Shown here: positions 115 through 44,069 of the stretch, one piece after another
Position numbering within the stretch: the first letter of the stretch is position 1
Layout: every line of letters begins with the position of its first letter
Assembly (NCBI RefSeq): GCF_048128805.1
Contig: NC_136017.1
Location: forward strand, 15,587,307 to 15,651,306
Reading direction: 5' to 3'
DNA length: 64,000 nt
Source of the DNA: Centroberyx gerrardi
Lineage: Eukaryota; Chordata; Actinopteri; Beryciformes; Berycidae
Notes under the pieces: model-generated
The model's input: only the letters and a program-made list of their open reading frames with translations
Databases searched by the model: none
Told to the model about the DNA's origin: nothing
Made by a program: the position numbers and the translations under genes

Positions 115-770
115 TTTTCAAGAGACAGAACCCCTGCAAAGCAGCCGGGCAGACTCTGTCTCTCCATCCACCCTGAAGCACTGTGCTGATCAGCTGTCTC
201 CGGTGCTTCACCACCTCACTGGAGACATGCCATGTACCAGCCTGCTTCAAGACCTCCACCATCATCCCCGTCCCCAAAAAGCCAAGGACCACAGGACGTT
301 GAATTATGACTGCTGCCCTCGTTTCTGTGAATTTTAGTGCTGACCTCAGCCCCTTCTCATCGCCGCATGCTGCCTCTCTTTCTTTTCTGTTTTATCCTGT
401 CTTTGTTGTTGCCCTTGATCCCGTCACTGTTTTGCCCGGCAAAAGGGGGATCCCTCCTTGCCTCAGCCCGCCCAAGGTTTCTTCCATTTTTTTCCTACTA
501 AGGTTCTTCTTGGGAGTTTTTCCTTGTGTGCAATCAGGGTCTAAGGCTGGTGGTGCCGGGTAGGTTAGGCTACGTAGAATAGGTAGACTGTTTGTCTTGC
601 TAAAATCTGTTCTGTCTGTCTTGTGCTCTTCGCTATGCTTGTCCTATATCATTTTGTTCACCATTGATTTTTGATAAGTTAGATCTAGTTAGGCTCATTC
701 TCTGTAAAGTCCTCTGAGACATGCTTGTGATAAAGGGCTATATAAATAAACAAACTTGAACTTAAAAACT
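115..770 (+). pseudogene. Truncated LINE (reverse-transcriptase remnant plus 3' tail)
   Basis: On the plus strand around 227-310 one frame reads CHVPACFKTSTIIPVPKKP, a conserved stretch of the reverse transcriptase of fish L2/Rex-like LINEs. The next conserved block (LN-Y) appears only in a shifted frame after a stop, so the copy is dead. It is followed directly by a typical 3' region (TTCTTCTTGGGAGTTTTTCC near 502) ending in GGGCTATATAAATAAACAAA at about 736-755. The rest of the ORF is missing, consistent with an internally deleted insertion. Family assignment is by recognition, not by search. Confidence 0.6.
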
Positions 771-825
771 TATTTACATCTAAAATCTTATTGCTGTATT
801 GTACTTTTTTATTCTTTTCTCAATG

Positions 826-1005
826 AAGCACTTTGTAACTTATTGTTTTCAAAAGGTGCTATGAAATAAAACTTAGCCTACCTACTGACTTACCTACTTA
901 TCATTTACAGTTTAAACAGTAGACTATATAGTATATAACTCAACCCGGCTACCATATCTATACTATCCAATGATACATAACTCTAAAAACATATGTAACA
1001 AAGTG
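826..1005 (+). repeat. Dispersed repeat fragment, also found right of the satellite
   Basis: The block from AAGCACTTTGTAACTT through GATACATAACTCTAAAAAC reappears in rearranged form at about 10490-10700 and again near 11260-11310. The satellite at 1640-9855 is therefore bracketed by members of one repeat family, as if it had expanded inside a repeat cluster. Confidence 0.5.
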
Positions 1006-1540: not shown

Positions 1541-1640
1541 CTCTAGGGGTGGGCGATATGAACTCAAATTAATATCACAGTATTTTTCACTGTGTGGACA
1601 GTATCGGTATTATGTCACGGTATTCAAAATTTAATTTAAT
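1541..1640. repeat. MITE-like end (GGGGTGGGCGATATG)
   Basis: The string GGGGTGGGCGATATG followed by short ATATCA/CAGTAT/CGGTAT motifs resembles the terminus of hAT-type non-autonomous elements common in vertebrates. No matching second terminus is visible on the far side of the satellite, so only one end can be claimed. Confidence 0.35.
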
Positions 1641-2219
1641 TTAAAATCAGTATCCACTTACCTGAAATACTTAACTGAAATAGCTGTGAAGACAAAATCA
1701 GTTCACACTTACCTGACATACTTACCTTATATACCCGTGAAAATAAAATCAGTATACACTTACCTGAAATACTTACCTGAAATAGCTGTGAAAACAAAAT
1801 CAGTAAACACTTACCTGAAATACTTACCTGAAATCGCTGTGGTAATAAATTTAGTATACACTTACCTGGAATACTTACCTGACATAGCTGTGAAACCAAA
1901 ATCAGTATACACTTACCTGAAATACTTACCTGATATAGCTGTGAAAACAAAATCAATATACACTTACCTTAAATACTTACCTGAAATAGCTGTGAAAGTA
2001 AAATCAGTTTACAGTTACCTCAAATAGATGTGAAAATTAATTCAGTATACACTTACCTGAAATACTTACCTGAAATAGCTGTGGTAATAAAATCAGGAAA
2101 CACTTACCTGAAATACTTACTTGACATAGCTGTGAAAACAAAAACAGTATACAATTACCTGACATACTTACTTGGTATAGCCATGAAAACAAAATCAGTT
2201 TACTTACCTGACACATTTA

Positions 2220-3230
2220 ACTGATATACCTGTGAAGACAAAATCAGTATACACTTACCTGAAACACTTACCTGATATAGGCTCTGTGAAAACAAAATCA
2301 GTATTCACTTACCTGACATACTTACCTGGTATATCTGTGAAAGAAAAATCAGTTCACTTACCTGACATACTTACCTGGTATATTTTTGAAAACAAAATCA
2401 GTTTACTTACCTCACATACTTACCTGATATAGCTGTGAAAACAAAATCAATATACACTTATCTGAAATATTTAACCTGACATAGCTATGAAAACAAGATC
2501 AGTTCACATTTACCTTAAATACTTACCTGACATAGCTATGAAAACAAGATCAGTTCACATTTACCTGAAATACTTACCTGAAATAGCTGTAGTAATAAAA
2601 TCAGGAAACACTTACCTGAAACACTTACCTGACATAGCTGTGAAAACAAAAACAGTATACAATTACCTGACATACTTACCTGGTATAGCCATGAAAACAA
2701 AATCAGTATACACTTACCTGAAACACTTACCTGATATAGGCTCTGTGAAAACAAAATCAGTATTCACTTACCTGACATATTTACCTGGTATATCTGTGAA
2801 AGAAAAATCAGTTCACTTACCTGACATACTTACCTGGTATATTTTTGAAAACAAAATCAGTTCACTTACCTCACATACTTACCTGATATAGCTGTGAAAA
2901 CAAAATCAATATACACTTATCTGAAATATTTACCTGACATAGCTATGAAAACAAGATAAGTTCACATTTACCTGAAATACTTACCTGAAATAGCTGTGGT
3001 AATAAAATCAGGAAACACTTACCTGAAACACTTACCTGACATAGCTGTGAAAACAAAAACAGTATACAATTACCTGACATACTTACCTGGTATAGCCATG
3101 AAAACAAAATCAGTTTACTTAACTGACATACTTAACTGATATACCTGTGAAGACAAAATCAGTATACACTTACCTGAAACACTTACCTGATATAGGCTCT
3201 GTGAAAACAAAATCAGTATTCACTTACCTG
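2220..3230. repeat. Higher-order repeat of about 465 bp in the satellite
   Basis: The ordered variants GGTATAGCCATG, GATATAGGCTCTGTG and GGTATATTTTTG occur in the same sequence near 2230-2400 and 2690-2860, and partly again near 3090-3230. The spacing is about 465 bp, roughly nine monomers. Confidence 0.7.
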
Positions 3231-5625
3231 ACATATTTACCTGAAATAGCTGTGAAGACAAAGTCAGTTCACACTTACCTGACATACTTACCTTGAATAC
3301 CCGTGAAGATAAAATCAGTATACACTTACCTGAAATACTTACCTGAAATAGCTGTGAAAACAAAATCAGTAAACACTTACCTGAAATACTTACCTGAAAT
3401 CGTTGTGGTAATAAATTCAGTATACACTTACCTGGAATACATACCTGACATAGATGTGAAACCAAAATCAGTATACACTTACCTGACATACTTACCTGGT
3501 ATACCTGTGAAGCTAAAATCAGTATCCCCTTACCTGAAACACTTACCTGATATAGGCTCTGTGAAAACAAAATAAGTACACTTACCTGGCATACTTACCT
3601 GACTTAGCTGTGAAAACAAAATCAGTATACACTTACCTGAAATACTTACCTGATATAGCTGTGAAAACAAAATCAGTATACACTTACCTGAAATACTTAC
3701 CTGAAATAGCTGTGAAAGTAAAATCAGTTTACACTTACCTGAAATAGATGTGAAAATTAAATCAGTATATACTTACCTGAAATAGCTGTGGTAATAAAAT
3801 CAGGAAACACTTACCTGAAATACTTACCTAACATAGCTGTGAAAACAAAAACAATATACAATTACCTGACATACTTACCTGGTATAGCCATGAAAACAAA
3901 ATCAGTATTCACTTACCTGACATACTTACCTGAAATAGCTGTGAAAACAAAATCAGTTCACTTACCTGACATACTTACCTGACAAACATGTGAAGCTAAA
4001 ATCAGTATGCCCTTACCTGAAATACTTACCTGAAATAGCTGTGAAAACAAAATCAGTTCACACTTACCTGACATACTTACCTTATATACCCATGAAGATA
4101 AAATCAGTATACACTTACCTGGCATACTTATCTGACATAGCTGTGAAAACAAAATCAGTATACACTTACCTGAAATACTTACCTGATATAGTGGTGAAAA
4201 CAAAATTAATATACACTTACCTGAAATACTTAGCTGAAATAGCTGTGGTAATAAATTCAGTATACACTTACCTGACATACTTAACTGATATACCTGTGAA
4301 AACAAAATCAGTATTCATTTACCTGACATACTTATCTGGTATATCTTTGAAAACAAAATAAGTTCACTTACCTACCATACTTACCTGATATAGCTGTGAA
4401 AACAAAATCAGTATGCACTTACCTGAAATACTTACCTGAAATAGCTGTGAAAACAAAATCAGTATGCACTTACCTGAAATACATACCTGAAATAGCTGTG
4501 AAAACAAAATCAGTATACACTTACCTGAAATATTTACCTAACATAGCTGTGAAAACAAAATCAGTATACGCTTACCTGAAATACTTATCTGAAATAGCTG
4601 TGAAAGTAAAATCAGTTTACACTTACCTGAAATAGATGTGAAAATTAAATCAGTATACACTTACCTGAAATACTTACCTGAAATAGCTGTGGTAATAAAA
4701 TCAGGAAACACTTACCTGAAATACTTACCTAACATAGCTGTGAAAACAAAAACAGTATACAATTACCTGAAATACTTACCTGAAATAGCTATGAAAATAA
4801 AATCAGTATACACTTACCTGAAATAGATGTGAAAATTAAATTAGTATACACTTACCTGAAATACTTACATGAAATAGTTGTGAAAGTAAAATCAGTTTAC
4901 AATTACCTGAAATACTTACCTGATATAGCTGTGAAAACAAAATCAGTATACACTTACATTAAATACTTACCTGAAATAGCTGTGAAAGTAAAATCAGTTT
5001 ACACTTACCTGAAATAGATGTGAAAATTAAATCAGTATACACTTACCTGAAATACTTACCTGAAATAGATGTGAAAATTAAATCAGTATACACTTACCTG
5101 AAATACTTACCTGGTATAGCCATGAAAACAAAATCAGTTTACTTACCTGACATACTTACCTGACAAACATGTGAAGTTAAAATCAGTATCCCCTTACCTG
5201 AAATACTTACCTGAAATAGCTGTGAAAACAAAATCAGCTCACACTTACCTGACATACTTACCTTATATACCCGTGAAGATAAAATCAGTATACACTTACC
5301 TGGCGTACTTACCTGACATAGCTGTGAAAACGAAATCAGTATACACTTACCTGAAATACTTACCTGATATAGTGGTGAAAACAAAATTAATATACACTTA
5401 CCTGAAATACTTACCTGAAATAGCTGTGGTAATAAATTCAGTATACACTTACCTGACATACTTAACTGATATACCTGTGAAAACAAAATCATTATTCACT
5501 TACCTGACATACTTATCTGGTATATCTTTGAAAACAAAATAAGTTCACTTACCTACCATACTTACCTGATATAGCTGAGAAAACAAAATCAGTTCACTTA
5601 CCTCACATACTTACCTGATATAGCT

Positions 5626-7347
5626 GTGAAAACAAAATCAGTATGCACTTACCTGAAATACTTACCTGAAATAGCTGTGAAAACAAAATCAGTATACACT
5701 TACCTGAAATACTTACCTGATATACCTGTGAAAACAAAATCAGTATACACTTACATTAAATACTTACATGAAATAGCTGTGAAAGTAAAATCAGTATACA
5801 CTTACCTGAAATACTTACCTGAAAAAGCTGTGGAAATAAATTCAGTATACACTTACCTGACATACTTACCTGACATAACTGTGAAAACAAAATAAGTATA
5901 CACTTACCTGACATACTTAGCTGGTATAGCCGTGAAAACAAAATCAGTTTACTTACCTGAAATACTTTCCTGACATAGCTGTGAAAACAAAATCATTTGA
6001 CACTTACCTGACATACTTACCTGGTATAGCTGTGAAAACAAAATCAGTATTCACTTACCTGACATACTTACCAGAAATAGCTGTGAAGAGAAAATCAGTT
6101 CATACTTACCTGACATACTTACCTGATATACCTGTGAAGACAAATTCAGTATACACTTACCTGAAACACTTACCTGATATAGGCTCTGTGAAAACAAAAT
6201 CAGTATTCACTTACCTGACATACTTACCTGGTATATCTTTGAAAACAAAATAAGTTCACTTATCTACCATACTTACCTGATATAGCTGTGAAAACAAAAT
6301 CAGTTCACTTACCTTACATACTTACCTGATATAGCTGTGAAAACAAAATCAGTATGCAGTTACCTGAAACTTACCTGAAATAGCTGTGAAAACAAAATCA
6401 GTATACATTTACCTGATATACTTACCTGATATAGCTGTGAAAACAAAATCAGTATACACTTACCTGAAATACTTACCTGAAATAGCTGTGAAAATAAAAT
6501 CAGTATGCACTTACCTGAAATACTTACCTGAAATAGCTGTGAAAACAAAATCAGTATACACTTACCTGAAATACTTACCTGATATACCTGTGAAAACAAA
6601 ATCAGTATACACTTACATTAAATACTTACATGAAATAGCTGTGAAAGTAAAATCAGTATACACTTACCTGAAATACTTACCTGAAAAAGCTGTGGAAATA
6701 AATTCAGTATACACTTACCTGACATACTTACCTGACATAACTGTGAAAACAAAATAAGTATACACTTACCTGACATACTTAGCTGGTATAGCCGTGAAAA
6801 CAAAATCAGTTTACTTACCTGAAATACTTTCCTGACATAGCTGTGAAAACAACATCATTTGACACTTACCTGACATACTTACCTGGTATAGCTGTGAAAA
6901 CAAAATCAGTATTCACTTACCTGACATACTTACCAGAAATAGCTGTGAAGAGAAAATCAGTTCATACTTACCTGACATGCTTACCTGATATACCTGTGAA
7001 GACAAATTCAGTATACACTTACCTGAAACACTTACCTGATATAGGCTCTGAAAACAAAATCAGTATTCACTTACCTGACATACTTACCTGGTATATCTTT
7101 GAAAACAAAATAAGTTCACTTATCTACCATACTTACCTGATATAGCTGTGAAAACAAAATCAGTTCACTTACCTTACATACTTACCTGATATAGCTGTGA
7201 AAACAAAATCAGTATGCAGTTACCTGAAACTTACCTGAAATAGCTGTGAAAACAAAATCAGTATACATTTACCTGATATACTTACCTGATATAGCTGTGA
7301 AAACAAAATCAGTATACACTTACCTGAAATACTTACCTGAAATAGCT
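5626..7347. repeat. Tandem duplication (862 bp) inside the satellite
   Basis: The block at about 5626-6487 is repeated almost exactly at 6488-7347. Diagnostic variants recur at a constant 862-bp offset: ATGAAATAGCTGTGAAAGTA near 5768 and 6630, GAAAAAGCTGTGGAAATAAA near 5821 and 6683, and the CTTTCCTGACATAGC unit near 5966 and 6828. One copy lost TG in GGCTCTGTG (near 7046), giving 860 bp afterwards. This is a recent segmental step in array growth. Confidence 0.85.
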
Positions 7348-9862
7348 GTGAAAATAAAATCAGTATACACTTACCTGAAATACTTACATGAAATAGCTGT
7401 GAAAGTAAAATCAGTTTACATTTACCTGAAATACTTACCTGATATAGCTGTGAAAACAAAATCAGTATACACTTACCTGAAATACTTACCTGAAATAACT
7501 GTGAAAATAAAATCAGTATACACTTACCTGAAATACTTACCTGAAATAGCTGTGAAAGTAAAATCAGTTTACACTTACCTGAAATAGGTGTGAAAATTAA
7601 ATCAGTATACACTTACCTGAAATACTTACCTGAAATAGATGTGAAAAGTAAATCAGTATACACTTACCTGAAATACTTACCTGAAATAGCTGTGGTAATA
7701 AAATCAGGAAACACTTACCTGAAATACTTACCTAACATAGCTGTGAAAACAAAAACAGTATACAATTACCTGACATACTTACCTGGTATAGCCATGAAAA
7801 CAAAATCAGTTTACTTACCTGACATACTTAACTGATATACCTGTGAAAACAAAATCAGTATTCACTTACCTGACATACTTAGCTGACAAACATGTGAAGC
7901 TAAAATCAGTATCCCTTACCTGAAATACCTTCCTGAAATAGCTGTGAAAACAAAATCAGTTCACACTTTCCTGACATACTTACCTTATATACCCGTGAAG
8001 ATAAAATCAGTATACACTTACCTGGCATACTTACCTGACATAGCTGTGAAAACGAAATCAGTATACACTTACCTGAAATACTTACCTGAAATAGCTGTGA
8101 AAACAAAATCAGTATACACTTACCTGAAATACTTACCTGATATACCTGTGAAAACAAAATCAGTATACACTTACATTAAATACATACCTGAAATAGCTGT
8201 GAAAGTAAAATCAGTTTACACTTACCTTAAATAGATGTGAAAATTAAATCAGTATACACTTACCTGAAATACTTACCTGAAATAGATGTGAAAATTAAAT
8301 CAGTATACACTTACCTGAAATACTTACCTGAAATAGCTGTGAAAACAAAAACAGTATACAATTACCTGACATACTTACCTGGTATAGCCATGAAAACAAA
8401 ATCAGTTTACTTACCTGACATACTTAACTGATATACCTGTGAAAACAAAATCAGTATTCACTTACCTGACATACTTAGCTGACAAACATGTGAAGCTAAA
8501 ATCAGTATCCCTTACCTGAAATACTTACCTGAAATAGCTGTGAAAACAAAATCAGTTCACATTTACCTGACATACTTACCTTATATACCTGTGAAGATAA
8601 AATCAGTATACACTTACCTGGCATACTTACCTGACATAGCTGTGAAAACGAAATCAGTATACACTTACCTGACATACTTACCTGGTATATCTTTGAAAAC
8701 AAAATAAGTTCACTTACCTACCATACTTACCTGATATAGCTGTGAAAACAAAATCAGTTCACTTACCTCACATACTTACCTGATATAGCTGTGAAAACAA
8801 AATCAGTATGCACTTACCTGAAATAGCTGAGAAAACAAAATCAGTATACACTTACCTGAAATACCTGATATAGCTGTGAAAACAAAATCAGTATTCACTT
8901 ACCTGACATACTTACCTGACAAACATGTGAAGCTAAAATCAGTATCCCCTTACCTGAAATACTTAAAAATAATACTTAAAAAATAGCTGTGAAAACAAAA
9001 TCAGTTCACACTTACCTGAAATACTTACCTGAAATAGCTGTGGTAATAAATTCAGTATACACTTACTTGACATACTTAACTGATATACCTGTGAAAACAA
9101 AATAAGTTCACTTACCTACCATACTTACCTGATATAGCTGTGAAAACAAAATCAGTTCACTTACCTTACATACTTACCTGATATAGCTGTGAAAACAAAA
9201 TCAGTATGCACTTACCTGAAATACTTACCTGAAATAGCTGTGAAAACAAAATCAGTATACACTTACCTTAAATACTTACCTGATATAGCTGTGAAAACAA
9301 AATCAGTATACACTTACCTGAAATAGCTGTGAAAATAAAATCAGTATACACTTACCTGAAATACTTACATGAAATAGCTGTGAAAGTAAAATCAGTATAT
9401 ACTTACCTGAAATACTTACCTGATATAGCTGTGAAAATAAAATCAGTATTCACTTACCTGACATACTTACCTGGTATATCTGTGAAAACAAAATCAGTTC
9501 ACTTACCTGACATACTTAACTGATATAGCTGTGAAAACAAAATCAGGTATTCACTTACCTGAAATACCTGAAATAGCTGTGAAAACAAAATCAGTTCACA
9601 CTTACCTGATATACTTACCTTATATACCTGTGAAGATAAAATCAGTATACACTTACCTGAAACACTTACCTGATACAGGCTCTGTGAAAACAAAATCAGT
9701 ACACTTACCTGGCATACTTACCTGACATAGCAGTGAAAACAAAATCAGTATACACTTACCTGAAATACTTAACTGACATAGCTATGAAAACAAAATCAGT
9801 TCACACTTACCTGACATACTTACCTGACATAGCTGTGAAAACAACATCAGAATACACTTATG

Positions 9863-9990
9863 GCGCTACACAAATTAAACACCACATTTACTGCGTGTAG
9901 ACGACGCTACACAGACAACCACATTTACTGCATATAGACTGCGCTACAGAGATAAACAACTACATTTACTGTGTGTAGACGGCACTACAC
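9863..9990. repeat. Short tandem repeat of about 40 bp, three copies
   Basis: Units beginning CGCTACAC and containing CACATTTACTGCGTGTAGAC start near 9864, 9905 and 9942, with a last partial one near 9983. It abuts the satellite and shares no obvious sequence with it. Confidence 0.7.
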
Positions 9991-10099
9991 ATAACAAAAA
10001 CAACATTTTCTTTATGAAGATCATGCTAAACTAACATCTATCCTATACTATCACATGATCTAAAATCTTATCACTATCATTTTTTTTTATTATTCTTTT

Positions 10100-11240
10100 C
10101 TCTGTGAAGCACTTTGTAACTTTTTGTTAATACAGTAGCCTATATATAGTATATAACAGGTCAGAAACCGAATTATATCAACAATTATAGACTACAGGGA
10201 TGCCTGACTCTGCTAGCTTCAGACAGCTTGCTCAGCAGATCAGAAACTGAATTGTATCAACAAACAATTGTACCAAGACCTGAGAACAGTGTATCTCCAC
10301 TCACTGCAGCTACCATATCTATACATAATTCTAAAAACGGATTTGCATGTAAATTCTTAGGAGGCTGCAGCTGACAAATATAGGCTAAAGGGACGGCTGA
10401 CTCTACTGACTTGGAATAGCCCGCTCAACATATCAGAAACCCGAACTGTATCAACAAACAATTATACAGAGACCTGAGAAGTGTATCACAACTCAAGCCG
10501 GCTACCATATCTATACTATCATATGATACATAACTCTACAAACGTATTAACATCTAAAATCTTATCACTATCATTTTTTTTGTTTTGTTGTTATTCTTTT
10601 CTTTATGAAGCACTTTGTAACTTCTAGTTTTCAAAGGTGCTATGAAATAAAACTTACTTAGTGACTTACCTACTTACCATTTACAGTTAATACAGTAGCC
10701 TATATAGTATATAACAGGTCAGAAACCAAATTATATCAACAATTATAGACTACAGGGACGCCTGACTCTGCTAGCTTCAGACAGCTTGCTCACCAGATCA
10801 GAAACCGAATTGTATCAACAAACAATTGTACCAAGACCTGAGAACAGTGTATATCAACTCACTGCAGCTACAATATCTGTACATAATTCTAAAAATGTAT
10901 TTAGGCTACATCTAAATTCTTAGGAGGCTGCAGCTGACAAATATAGGCTAAAGGGACGGCTGACTCTACTGACTTGGAATAGCCCGCTCAACATATCAGA
11001 AACCGAATTGTATCAACAAAAGTTTATACCGAGACCTGAGAACAGTGTATCACAACTCAACAATCAGACTACAGGGACACCTGACTCTGCTAGCTTGAGA
11101 TGGCCTGCTCAGCAAATCAGAAACCGAACTGTATCAACAAATATTAGCTAACGGGATGGCTGACTCTGCTGACTTGGAACAGCCAGCTCAGCAGATCAGA
11201 AACCGAATTGTATCAACAAACAATCATACCGAGATCTGAG
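10100..11240. repeat. Duplicated segment of about 560 bp plus a third partial copy
   Basis: The order CAGTAGCCTATATA, GTATATAACAGGTCAGAAAC, GACTACAGGGA, GCCTGACTCTGCTAGCTTC, GAGGCTGCAGCTGAC, GACTTGGAATAGCCCGCTC occurs at about 10130-10430 and again at about 10690-10990. A partial third copy lies at about 11050-11200. The region has no credible coding frame. Confidence 0.75.
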
Positions 11241-11349
11241 AACAGTGTATCACAACTCATTCCGGCTACTAAATCTATACTATAATATGATGCATAACTC
11301 TAAAAACCTATTTATGTCTAAAATCATACTATTTACAGTACCTACCTAT

Positions 11350-11583
11350 TCAGAGTCGCAGGTGTCTCTTGGGAGGAGGGGGGCTGCTGCTGCTGTCATC
11401 TGAGCTAGCCTTCCTCTTCCTCTGACGCATCACCACGTCTCTGGGCCTGGGCAGGGTGCAGAAGACCGACAGCAGCATGTGGCCCTCTGGACTGTAGTCC
11501 GTCAGCCTCCACCGGCCCGCCAGCTCCCCTCTCACAGAGCAGCAGACTGGAGAGAAGACCCTGAAGAAACGGCTGCCTGCCAC
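11350..11583 (-). CDS. Exon 4 of the 230-residue gene
   Basis: Entered through TTTCCAAG/GTGGCAG and ending at a stop at 11350. It encodes a Cys/Arg-containing segment (FFRVFSPVCCSVRGELAGRW) and the basic Ser/Pro tail. Intron 3 before it is only 141 bp. Confidence 0.7.
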   Translation of the reverse strand: MAGSRFFRVFSPVCCSVRGELAGRWRLTDYSPEGHMLLSVFCTLPRPRDVVMRQRKRKASSDDSSSSPPPPKRHLRL

Positions 11584-14525
11584 CTTGGAAATAAGACCAC
11601 ATTGGAAATAAGTGTCTTGTGTAACACTTTCATGTGCCATCCTCTGGGTTCAATGTAACACGCTAATTCTTTTAACATGTTTGATTATTTTTTTTGCCCG
11701 TAATAAATTCAATCAATCAATCACCTCCATAGGGCAGACGTGGTTCCTGGGGTCTGCCGTCAGGGCTGCTGGCTCGACCTTGTCTGGGTGGCTTGGAGTC
11801 ACAAGGGAGCGAGCAGAAGACCTGGAGCCGGCTGTGGACACCATCACAGCTGCCGGTGCTTCCATCACAGGACCTAGGGATGGGACAATATATTGAAATT
11901 CAATATATCGCAATACAAAAATAAATACGGATCGTGGGGCAGAAAAATGAATCGCAATATCAGCTAGGCCTATATCTTACTCTGGTGTAGTAATCACAAA
12001 CGAGACAGCTTGCCCATCACAAATTCACAAGCTCTCTATCAAAATTATATTATTTGCACTTTGTAATGACATTTTTAAATTCTTGTTTAGATTCTAGCAA
12101 GCCAATGCCATTGCTAGAAATATTTGTGGTTCAGAAATAAACATTACAGTATCGAATTGTATCATGTAATAAGCATATTGTCCCATCCCTACCCAGTGGT
12201 GTGTTCTCCATGCGGTCCTCGGAGGGATACACAAAGGGGGAAGCCAGCCGGACCACGTGCAAGGACCCCTCAACATGAATCCAAGCAAAGTCGCTGGACT
12301 CTCCGGTGAGGCGGCGGTGAAGGGTTGGGAGTGACTGACCAATGGCCAAGATGTTGCCCCAAGTCAGAGGACGGTTCCTCAGGTTGGTCACGTACATCGC
12401 TGTCCCAACGACTCTTGGCGGCCCATGCAGCCCAGCTAAATGGAAAACACAATGAGTCATGAATGACTTTTATTCATCTGACTACATGCCTTTCTTAAAA
12501 GCATGAAATTGTAAAAATAGGAATTTCATCAGTAATTCAGGAAAAATTAAAAACGTGAAAATATCATATCTAAGCTAAAATATTCTGTACTGTTGACAAA
12601 GAAATCCATGCCCAAGCAACAAAAAGGAGCGATGTAACCTTCAAAATAGCATGCTGAGAGAGAAAGCGCATCACTCTATTGTAGAAGAAAAATGGAAATC
12701 TATTTATTTAGCTATAAAAACATGATGTTTTGGTCTCTCGACCCTGTGCCTTTCTCTCTCAGCAAGCTCAAATATTCAGTAGGCTACGAATTAGGCTAAT
12801 TGTTGGATCATTGTCAAACACATGGATAAGTATATGTACATTGAATAAGATGGTGGGCTATTTCAGAAATGGTAGAAAAATTTGTTTGACAACGGGACTG
12901 AATCAGCGAAGGCCTCCAGAGAACGCTTAAACAGCTCTATAGTTGAGAGACTTGTTTTAATCTACATGCACCTAAATCTACATCACTGTTTGTGATTTTC
13001 TGCACAGTAAGTGAATTCCGCCTGGGAATGATCAAACTGTCCAACAATTGATAAGGACAACAAGACCTTTTCTGATAAATGGTGTTAAGTTCTGACAACT
13101 ACAGCCAAAGTTCACAAGGAAGTTCCTCCTCTGTTTTAGTAAAACACTCCATCAGGTATTACACTCACAACACAGCTTTGTGTCCGTTGTGAATGACAAA
13201 TGAGCCCTGAAAGTGAGTTGGCTGCATGTATAGGTCTTCATTTTATTTCAGCCACACATTATAACACTTTTGAAACATAGGCCTATATTGACTTTTAAAT
13301 ATTTTTTGTAGACTAAGACTAAGATGATTCTGTGGGTCTGATGATAGGTGCCCCAATGAGATGCCCACTGAGATGAGCTCTACAAATAAAATGTATTATG
13401 TTTTTTTTTTAACATACCCACAGTTAAGACAATTGTTTCCTGGGATTTGCCTGGACATGCTTTACTAATAAACTGCACTCTAATGTCAATATCTAAGAAT
13501 GATAGAGGAGTGTCAATTAGAAAATCTTGTTTGATATTAAATTTCCCTATGTAAAAGACTTGAACTAAGATCAAGCCTCTATTTGAATTGTAGAGGCATT
13601 TTGGGTTAGATAATGTAACACCAAAATCCACCCATTTCCTGCTGTTCATAACAATAAAATATAGGACTCCTAGCGGGAAATGCGTGTTTTTATATATCAA
13701 TTTACTATGTCCTTTGGGACATGCTTGTGACAGCGGGCTATATAAATAAACAAAAATGAAACTTAACACAAATTTATTTTGAAAGGTTATTTAATGAACC
13801 TAACCTGGCAACACATACGCTGGCTAGCCAGCATCCATTTAACAGCCAACTCTAATTGAAAACTGCACATTTGTAGTGTTTTAAGAAATCGTTTTTGGCT
13901 AACATTACGCTAGCTAGCTAAACAGTAGCGAGTAGCTAGCTGACATCCTACGTAGCTAACATTAGTTTTCAGTGATAATTGAATTTGCTTTTATTTGTTC
14001 AACACTTAAGATAGAAAAATATTTGAGGGTTACAAAGGTAGAGTAAAGAAAAACAATAATTGTTTGTCTAAGGCTCATATTTTAACGTATCATCTGTTTT
14101 CATCCAATTTACGTAAGCTAGCTAGTTGAGCTAAAGTTAGCTTGGCTAACTTTGACTTGCCGTATTTTGCCTTAACATGTTTTGTCATTTTTTTTATATA
14201 TTTTTTAACCAAACCCATATTTTGAAATTTTCTCATGTTGTTGAATCAATACGCATTTCTCGGCGAATGTCTCGCGTTTAATTGTGTGTTATTTTTGCGG
14301 TCAAACACTATGTTTGTGTACGTTGTACAAACGTAGCATTAAGATAGCTTGCAGTCGCGACCAAGGAGGTCCGCGACTCGCGGCTGTTAACACGTTATTA
14401 CTGGCTGCCACCGGCTGTTCCGGCCGCTAAATTAGGGATAAATGAATGAGCGAAGTACCTGCATGGTCCTGGTCTGGGTGGGGGAAGAAACTGGAAAGCA
14501 GGAGGTATTTCTCTCGCTGTGTCAT
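11350..14525 (-). CDS. Unrecognised four-exon gene, 230-residue protein
   Basis: Coding exons on the minus strand are 14525-14459, 12435-12193, 11873-11725 and 11583-11350 (stop included). The junctions are G/GTACTT, TTTAG/CT, G/GTAGGG, CCTAG/GT, GAG/GTGATT and CCAAG/GTGG. Phases 1, 1 and 0 all match and give 22+81+50+77 residues with no internal stop. The protein starts MTQREKYLLLSSFFPHPDQD, has a central segment with WGNILAIGQSLPTLHRR and DFAWIHVEGSLHVVRLASPF (about residues 50-90), and ends in a basic, Ser- and Pro-rich tail (RKRKASSDDSSSSPPPPKRH) that could serve as a nuclear localisation signal. The ATG lies 75 bp below a TATA box. I recognise no family and no function is claimed. Phase-consistent splicing over four exons argues for a real gene, but it could be a fast-evolving or lineage-restricted one. 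The nearest canonical minus-strand AATAAA I saw is at about 10086-10091. Confidence 0.7.
11725..11873 (-). CDS. Exon 3 of the 230-residue gene
   Basis: 149 bases between CCCTAG/GTCCTG and ATGGAG/GTGATT, encoding an Ala/Ser/Pro-rich linker. The acceptor AG is built partly from the end of the inverted-repeat element in intron 2. Confidence 0.65.
11875..12191. mobile_element. 317-bp inverted-repeat element (MITE-like) occupying intron 2
   Basis: Begins TAGGGATGGGACAATAT and ends with the exact reverse complement, ATATTGTCCCATCCCTA: a perfect 17-bp terminal inverted repeat. The ends resemble hAT-type MITEs. It fills the intron apart from one base at each side: the minus-strand GT donor takes its T from the element and the AG acceptor its A. 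I see no clear 8-bp target duplication (flanks ACAGGACC and CCCAGTGG). Confidence 0.8.
12193..12435 (-). CDS. Exon 2 of the 230-residue gene
   Basis: 243 bases, entered through CCATTTAG/CTGGG and left through CACTGG/GTAGGG. It encodes the most structured part of the protein (VVGTAMYVTNLRNRPLTWGN and onwards). Confidence 0.7.
13690..13765 (+). repeat. LINE/SINE 3' tail in intron 1
   Basis: CCTTTGGGACATGCTTGTGA followed by GGGCTATATAAATAAACAAA matches the tail at 708-755. It lies in the 2-kb intron 1 of the 230-residue gene; the rest of that intron shows no recognised feature. Confidence 0.55.
14459..14525 (-). CDS. Exon 1 (coding part) of the 230-residue gene
   Basis: Sixty-seven coding bases from the ATG in AACAATGACA to the donor CATGCAG/GTACTT. 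It ends in phase 1, which fits the acceptor at 12435. Confidence 0.65.
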
Positions 14526-14592
14526 TGTTTCGGACAGTCTGACTCTGGCAAATGCTGAAGTACAGAATGATAATTTGGAATATTCGGGTCTG

Positions 14593-16927: not shown

Positions 16928-28477
<11,550 letters not shown>

Positions 28478-42631: not shown

Positions 42632-44069
42632 TGACTGGATGTGGTTGAGGGTATGCACACATAATGGAGGGTAAACACACCCAAACTCAGAGTTTACCAT
42701 CCTTTTTTAGGCTGACATACGATACGATATGATACGATGCAATATGACACGATACGATACGATACAATATGACACGATACGATACAATATGACACAATAC
42801 AATACAATATGACACAATACGATACAATATGACATGATACAATACAATATGACACAATACGATACAATATGACACGATACAATACAATACAAAATGATAC
42901 GATACAATACAATACAAAATGATACGATACGATACAATATGACATGATACAATACAATTTGACACAATACAATACAATATGACATGATATGATACAATAT
43001 GACACAATACGATACAATACAATATGACACGATACAATACGATACAATATGACAAGATACGATACAATATGACACGATACAATGCAATACAATATAACAC
43101 AATACGATACGATACAATATAACACAATACGATACAATATGACACGATACGATACAATATGACACAATACGATACACTATAATATGACATGAACGATACA
43201 ATACAATATGACACAGTACGATACAATATGACATGACATGATACGATACAATATGACACGAACGATACGATACAATATGACATGACACAATACGATACAA
43301 TATGACATGACATGATACGATACAATATGACATGAACGATACGATACGATATGACAATACGATACAATATGACATGACATGATACGATACAATATGACAT
43401 GAACGATACGATACGATATGACAATACGATACAATATGACATGACATGATACGATACAATATGACACGAACGATACGATACGATATGACACAATACGATA
43501 GGATACAATATGACATGATAAGATATGATACAATATGACACAGTACGATACGATACAATATGACACGATACGATACATTATGACACGACACGATACAATA
43601 TGACATGACAAAATACGATACAATATGACATGATAAGATATGATACAATATGACACAGTACGATACGATACAATATGACACGATAAGATACAATATGACA
43701 CGATACGATACAATATGACACGATAAGATACAATATGACACGATACAATACAATATGATACGATACGATACATTATGACACGACACGATACAATATGACA
43801 TGACAAAATACGATACAATATGACACTATAAGATATGATACAATATGACATGACAAAATACGATACAATATGACACTAAGATATGATACAATATGACATA
43901 CGATACGATGCGATACAATATGACACGATACGATACAACATGACACGATACGATGCGCTAGAACTTTCATATCGTTTTGTATGTCAGCGTAAAAAACAGG
44001 ATGGTAAACTCTGAGTTTTGGTGGGTTTACCCTCCATTATGTGTGTATACCCTCAACTACATCCAGTCA
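42632..44069. mobile_element. Transposon-like element with about 90-bp inverted ends and a pentamer core
   Basis: The left end 42632-42720 (TGACTGGATGTGGTTGAGGG ... AGGCTGACATAC) and the right end 43979-44069 are near-perfect reverse complements. Between them is about 1.25 kb of GATAC/AATAC/GACAC pentamers. There is no transposase frame, so it would be non-autonomous. A fragment of the same element is at 38215-38325. I see no obvious target duplication. Confidence 0.8.
42721..43978. repeat. GATAC-type pentamer minisatellite
   Basis: Repeats such as GATACGATACAATATGACAC, with higher-order blocks (ACATGACATGATACGATAC, CACGAACGATACGATAC). Frames of up to 364 codons on the minus strand (SYCIVSYRIILY-like) result from the 5-bp period and are not proteins. 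Confidence 0.95.

Follow-up and report, generated by a model that had tools for sequence, protein, structure and literature searches.

Does a tandem repeat whose monomer reads like a splicing cassette provide a series of recursive splice sites, or is it satellite DNA that happens to resemble them? The question is raised by an array on the minus strand of a 64,000-nucleotide stretch of the Centroberyx gerrardi genome (contig NC_136017.1, positions 15,587,307 to 15,651,306; the whole stretch is called the window here). An earlier note, made from the letters alone, had described a satellite of about 160 units at positions ~1640 to 9855, in which acceptor-like motifs repeatedly abut donor-like ones. 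Our analyses suggest, with a probability of roughly 0.7, that the array is a member of an old and dispersed family of noncoding complex minisatellites that descends from a founder unit with the full splice signature. They establish the array itself, the family, the common orientation of its members, and a moderate conservation of the donor-like block.

A tandem array of splice-like units

The array (positions 1643 to 9860; C21:15.589-15.597 Mb, where C and a number denote a contig) has a period of 51 bp and comprises 161.4 copies according to Tandem Repeats Finder (TRF) and 165 rows in a wrap-around alignment, in agreement with the number of units and the extent first proposed. On the minus strand, the consensus unit is GTTTTCACAGCTAT[T/A]TCAGGTAAGTATTTCAGGTAAGTGTATACTGATTTT, which can be divided into the parts GTTTTCACAG-CTAT[T/A]TCAG-GTAAGTATTTCAG-GTAAGTG-TATACTGATTTT. 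Most units carry two AG/GTAAGT junctions together with an acceptor-like stretch (TTTTGTTTTCACAG) and a branch-point-like stretch (CTGAT), and all of the motif parts that had been named were found on this strand. The motif CAGGTAAG occurs 222 times on the minus strand of the array and not once on its plus strand, while the other 55.8 kb of the window contain 2 copies on both strands together. A mononucleotide-shuffled array contains 0.085 copies on average; the motif count thus far exceeds the kind of control that the earlier note had proposed.

Of the 165 aligned rows, 120 have an intact AGGT tetranucleotide at junction 1 and 153 at junction 2 (273/330 when both junctions are pooled). The full CAGGTAAGT block is present in 100 and 107 rows, respectively. 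An estimate of the order of 300 junctions was therefore slightly high, although hundreds of them are real. At junction 1, the G of GT is gone in 20 of the 156 scored units. Pyrimidines occupy 12 of the 17 positions upstream of junction 1, 12/17 upstream of a competing CACAG that sits 9 nt ahead of this junction, and 9/17 upstream of junction 2 (i.e., a weak tract).

A dispersed family of arrays with a common orientation

We searched the genome (779 Mb; 278 contigs) for the monomer. The loci reported here are those among the matches listed (the first 100 places per pattern), and more may exist. Exact copies of CAGGTAAGTATTTCAGGTAAGT and GTAAGTATGTCAGGTAAGTGTATAC number 397 and 342 genome-wide. 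Among the matches listed, the monomer forms at least seven long arrays (i.e., that of the window, two on C10, one each on C11 and C15, and two more on C21) and two relics (Table 1). The window array is thus not a lone accident, because the same unit recurs in long arrays at six other places and in the relics. In the window array and the six other long arrays, TRF and the alignments revealed head-to-tail units with a common consensus, as in a minisatellite or satellite. At least 2,074 copies of CAGGTAAG, including the 222 of the window, lie in array orientation in the analyzed stretches of the seven loci. The branch-point-like CTGAT belongs to the consensus of the window array and of the other C21 arrays but not to those of C10, C11, and C15, which read CCCG or ACCG at this position. 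The exact monomer was absent from the viral contigs searched.

On the CAGGTAAG strand, C10, C15, and C21 each have two places at which a diverged noncoding module of a few kilobases lies upstream of the array. The module copies are 67 to 91% alike, and the orientation of module and array is the same at every place examined. At C15:0.94 Mb, the module is followed by an array relic only, and C11 shares one short module block, likewise upstream and in the same orientation. Local duplication is likely, given a similarity of 86.5% across 2 kb between the C21:13.8 Mb and C21:15.2 Mb copies and of 85 to 91% in the long matches between the two C10 copies. With the upstream sequence of the other loci, the window array shares only a companion minisatellite of about 41 bp. 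This 41-bp array is present at the window, at both C10 places, at C21:13.8 Mb, and beside the C15:0.94 Mb relic; it was absent from the TRF results for C15:3.45 Mb and C11 (score threshold, 200) and for the analyzed part of C21:15.17 Mb (threshold, 80).

Origin of the family

We infer a founder, its spread by duplication, and the lack of a present splicing role. A founder unit of ~38 bp, already equipped with donor-like, branch-point-like, and acceptor-like motifs, would have become the 51-bp unit through an internal 13-bp duplication (GTAAGTATTTCAG). The founder length is suggested by existing units without this duplication, namely, period-38 stretches in the window (TRF) and relic units of ~39 bp on C15. 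The 51-bp unit would then have been amplified by unequal exchange and the array copied onto several chromosomes, at six places together with the upstream module. That the CAGGTAAGT block is the most constant part of the unit would reflect a reduced spread of disruptive variants from unit to unit.

In these respects, the family resembles the complex minisatellites and satellites of vertebrates, which are likewise built of tandem units with an internal sub-repeat, higher-order repeats, and locus-specific variants. What sets it apart is the motif content of one strand, on which most units have a pair of perfect donor motifs in addition to acceptor-like motifs and, in some arrays, branch-point-like ones. 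We found no description of such an array in the titles and abstract openings of the open-licence literature, and one may exist elsewhere. The novelty would thus lie in a minisatellite family, of the known complex kind, with an unusual splice-like motif whose role in splicing is putative.

Conservation of the donor-like block

Several findings weigh against this minisatellite reading. One concerns the signature as a whole: among 60,000 shuffled 38-mers of the same composition, 5 showed donor, acceptor, and branch-point motifs together (on either strand). The signature may still have arisen by chance, because the criteria were set after the unit had been seen and the genome has many minisatellites. 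The remaining findings concern the CAGGTAAGT block. Over seven related arrays, the two donor blocks are the best-conserved part of the unit, with an average conservation of 0.961 versus 0.893 elsewhere, and none of the 50 other circular placements scored as high. The consensus sequences of C10, C15, and C21 differ in 0 of the 18 block columns versus 8 of the 33 others (Fisher p = 0.039; p = 0.078 if three adjacent changes are counted once). Since 19.6 to 20.8% of the ungapped columns of the module vary among these three lineages, 18 unchanged block columns represent a 1.5 to 2% event. Finally, variants found in at least two units are rarer in the block, both at A/T columns (0.48 versus 1.03 per column) and at G/C columns (1.32 versus 1.60).

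The per-position analysis that the earlier note had called for thus revealed a real excess of conservation. The note would have taken the match for an accident if both minus-strand transcription and such an excess were lacking, which is not the case, because the excess at CAGGTAAGT is real. Its impression that ACTTACCTG is the most constant block is borne out as a tendency: over the seven arrays, the pair of blocks tops all placements, and in the window array alone, 5 and 4 of the 51 circular placements match the conservation of the two 9-mers (counts that include the real placement). Because the arrays are related, they do not amount to seven independent tests.

Variants confined to a single unit are as common inside the block (43 in 90 columns) as outside it (78 in 167 columns). 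Given that these are equally frequent and that shared variants are rarer, block variants arise as elsewhere and seem to spread less. The counts of single-unit and shared variants come from five arrays, in which, at low power, we also saw no sign of the mutational asymmetry that germline transcription would leave. Weak selection on whole arrays, with which the 0/18 changed block columns among the three lineages are compatible, or a bias of amplification could each account for the constancy of the block; selection on single units is disfavored.

Strong selection on donor sites was rejected. When ten columns with variation inside arrays or from one array to another (picked by hand from the consensus comparison) are removed, the initially large difference between the core and the rest of the unit shrinks to 0.961 versus 0.936, and at the G/C positions of this reduced set, the values are 0.941 for the block and 0.935 for the others. 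Among the nine positions (two junctions in seven arrays), the obligatory +1G is the least conserved (0.935), while −2A (0.985) and +6T (0.984), at which real donors tolerate change, are the most conserved. The +1G is best or joint best in one of the seven arrays at each junction and is changed in 85 of 1930 cells, compared with 19 of 1913 for −2A (five arrays). In 12 junction rows, the rank correlation with donor frequencies as generally known lies between −0.47 and 0.55. The seven-array analysis leaves out the middle stretch of the C10 array (181 rows; heterogeneous, with inserts like long interspersed nuclear elements [LINEs]), whose +1G values are 0.76 and 0.81. Its C15 rows come from either side of the central 6 kb of that array, and the analyzed stretches contain the smaller part of the C10 array.

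Constancy of the block would also be expected under a role at the DNA level, in which the array forms a cluster of predicted sites for zinc-finger proteins of the ZEB/Snail type, whose motif we take CAGGTA to be. The entire CAGGTAAGT block is kept, beyond the positions that a donor requires, and most units contain two such sites, 13 bp apart. The G positions of the motif are, however, no better kept than other G/C positions (the 0.941 and 0.935 given above; n = 8 and 4), and we regard this role as quite unlikely.

Recursive splicing as a resemblance

Ratchet points of recursive splicing are well conserved, lie mostly in long introns, and need a cryptic exon of ~50 nt with its own donor (PMC8605326). 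As in ratchet points, an acceptor AG directly abuts a GTAAGT donor in the array, and the AGGT across this boundary is intact at most of the 330 junctions. Unlike ratchet points (PMC8605326), those of the array are tandem and hundreds-fold, their donor positions are not kept in a donor-like manner (i.e., +1G is the lowest of the nine), and they are known here from sequence.

That the junctions act as ratchet points within a long intron appears very unlikely. The juxtaposed motifs on which this idea was built are real and recur hundreds of times on a single strand, but the unit is less complete than had been proposed: junction 2 lacks a proper pyrimidine tract, the rival CACAG precedes junction 1, and CTGAT is not general to the family. 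No recognized gene has an intron around the window array, in contrast to the long host introns of ratchet points, and the +1G is unprotected. The conservation is not shaped like donor-site selection, and recursive splicing remains a resemblance.

Predicted fate of array RNA

If transcribed from the CAGGTAAG strand, the array would yield RNA predicted to offer hundreds of U1 sites. Such RNA may tend toward nuclear retention, because a consensus donor motif left in RNA inhibits export (PMC4380460), and it could be spliced in whole-unit steps, because intron gain by tandem AGGT duplication has been reported, with 24-bp AGGT units forming introns in fission yeast (PMC4974935). We consider it unlikely that the satellite is transparent to splicing in this sense, with array RNA that is bound by U1, confined to the nucleus, and spliced out by whole units at a time, which would account for the constancy of the block and for harmless growth next to or inside genes.

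A minor possibility is that the array removes itself by splicing and could for this reason expand in or behind genes. Its tandem AGGT-containing segments could supply both ends of an intron, as in AGGT-duplication introns (PMC4974935). Unlike the latter, it comprises ~165 units outside any recognized gene, and its splicing is only putative. In favor of self-removal are the 273 intact AGGT junctions, the equal pyrimidine content (12/17) upstream of CACAG and junction 1, the fission yeast introns, and the identity of the block between array lineages. These points are countered by the lack of a known host intron or transcript, the poor conservation of +1G, the loss of CTGAT from the C10, C11, and C15 consensus, and a 51-bp unit below the usual length of vertebrate introns.

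RNA from the plus strand could instead act as a decoy, as it would contain ATACTTACCTG, which we take to be the first 11 bases of the U1 small nuclear RNA, and might pair with the donors of other transcripts. An exact CAGGTAAGTAT occurs 93 times on the minus strand of the array, and the plus strand hence has 93 copies of ATACTTACCTG. However, about as many blocks (87) have the nonmatching form CAGGTAAGTGT, and Rfam detected no known RNA family in the window at gathering thresholds, U1 included, which makes this decoy extremely unlikely.

Two other systems combine repeats with splice signals. The internal repeat 1 of Epstein-Barr virus is, like the array, a tandem repeat in which splice sites (putative ones here) recur in each unit, but its units contain a promoter and coding exons and are known to be transcribed (PMC5834210). 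Introners are, like the array, repetitive DNA bearing splice signals, but they insert in many genes and form introns, whereas here we see long tandem arrays without insertion into a recognized gene (PMC9860276).

If the family is silent, it indicates that satellite DNA can be a vehicle for the spread of a complete splice signature, and it cautions against calling recursive splice sites from sequence alone. If it is transcribed, it offers a natural test bed, in which nearly identical donors and acceptors follow one another by the hundreds and which could show how the spliceosome picks among equal sites, whether U1 binding alone retains RNA in the nucleus, and whether tandem AGGT arrays are a stage toward new introns.

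Gene context and coding tests

Among the matches listed, none of the at least seven long arrays and two relics lies inside a gene recognized from the unannotated sequence, with the flanks of the other loci partly covered. The nearest recognized gene in the window (Table 1), which we take to be RCBTB-like, is on the same strand as the array; its last coding exon ends near 19266, ~9.4 kb away, and the array lies outside its introns. Several exon-like frames lie between the two (positions 11353 to 14540; minus strand), one of which reaches a stop ~1.5 kb before the array; Pfam gave no match for the two frames tested. Should they belong to one gene, its 3' end would be followed closely by the array, on the same strand. 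At C21:13.8 Mb, exons without a Pfam match above the cutoff lie on the strand opposite to the array and presumably belong to an NDFIP gene.

Open frames of ~390 bases occur on both strands of the window array. A protein-coding array was rejected, as the translation of neither strand found a homologue at an E value of 0.001 (one search scored the 8,000 best candidates). Despite the exon-like look of the upstream modules, a location within the intron of a multicopy coding gene was not supported either. The module copies differ by frame-breaking indels, their protein identity (42 to 80%) is not clearly above their DNA identity (~75 to 84% over matching stretches), and searches with the best module frame gave neither a homologue nor a Pfam family.

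Flanking repeats and other observations

Table 1. Locations of the arrays, the nearest gene, and flanking repeats (positions without a contig refer to the window)
Feature	Location	Strand	Evidence or remark
Tandem array, ~165 units of ~51 bp	1643..9860	-	TRF, motif counts, per-unit alignment
Companion minisatellite, ~41 bp, 3.7 copies	9862..10008	-	TRF, blastn; upstream of array in minus-strand reading
Degenerate ~200-bp repeats, higher period ~558 bp	10126..11328		Repeat search, self-BLAST; upstream of array on minus strand
Piece of ~558-bp repeat beyond other array end	759..1000		Self-BLAST, 82-91% identity
Stretch abutting array, starts TAGGGGTGGGCGATATG	1544..1642		Sequence, motif search
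Nearest recognized gene, RCC1 and BTB matches	19266..28477	-	Exon frames, Pfam RCC1 and BTB
Long array	C10:28.43-28.51 Mb		338 CAGGTAAG in array orientation, analyzed stretches
Long array	C10:30.90 Mb		82 CAGGTAAG in array orientation, analyzed stretches
Long array	C11:18.776-18.789 Mb		377 CAGGTAAG in array orientation, analyzed stretches
Long array	C15:3.441-3.452 Mb		163 CAGGTAAG in array orientation, analyzed stretches
Long array	C21:13.826 Mb to past 13.847 Mb		678 CAGGTAAG in array orientation, analyzed stretches
Long array	C21:15.174 Mb to past 15.181 Mb		214 CAGGTAAG in array orientation, analyzed stretches
Array relics	C15:0.935 Mb and C2:5.574 Mb		

The ~558-bp repeat is present on both sides of the window array; the array and its flanks therefore sit within this older repeat. 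The start of the stretch abutting the array looks like a putative DNA transposon end and could be one of the paired ends of a transposon around the array; no second copy of its motif (with up to 2 mismatches) and no second end were found in the window.

Other arrays of the family have particular boundaries and inserts. The C11 array stops directly at TTAGGGTTAGGG, which consists of two telomere-like repeats (L013, 6765 to 6800; C11:18.789 Mb). An insert resembling a LINE tail (GAAGCACTTTGTTACCTG...AATAAAG) interrupts the C10 array (L018 and L010; C10:28.43-28.445 Mb) and is co-amplified with it into larger repeat units. The C2:5.574 Mb relic (L009, 4330 to 4900), distant from the other loci, consists of ~1.5 isolated units and an adjacent inverted partial unit.

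The first 300 bases of the window (in the stretch at positions 1 to 700) presumably derive from a LINE; the reverse transcriptase frame of another LINE (RVT_1; E = 1.8e-34) lies on the plus strand at positions 8307 to 9317 of the neighboring locus L019. Long frames on the minus strand of L019 (1842 to 3734; C21:15.579-15.581 Mb, ~6 to 8 kb left of the window) match OTU protease and, weakly, Herpes_teg_N, and a second OTU-like stretch lies at 730 to 1104; these frames presumably mark the beginning of a helitron-like transposon of the kind present in fishes. A stretch of ~300 bp in the window (11880 to 12190), with inverted ends of the GGGATGGGACAATA type as judged by eye, is probably a small DNA transposon. 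Farther along the window (42717 to 43954), degenerate units of 5 bp, of the ATACG type, make up a 1.2-kb array with a strong skew of A over T.

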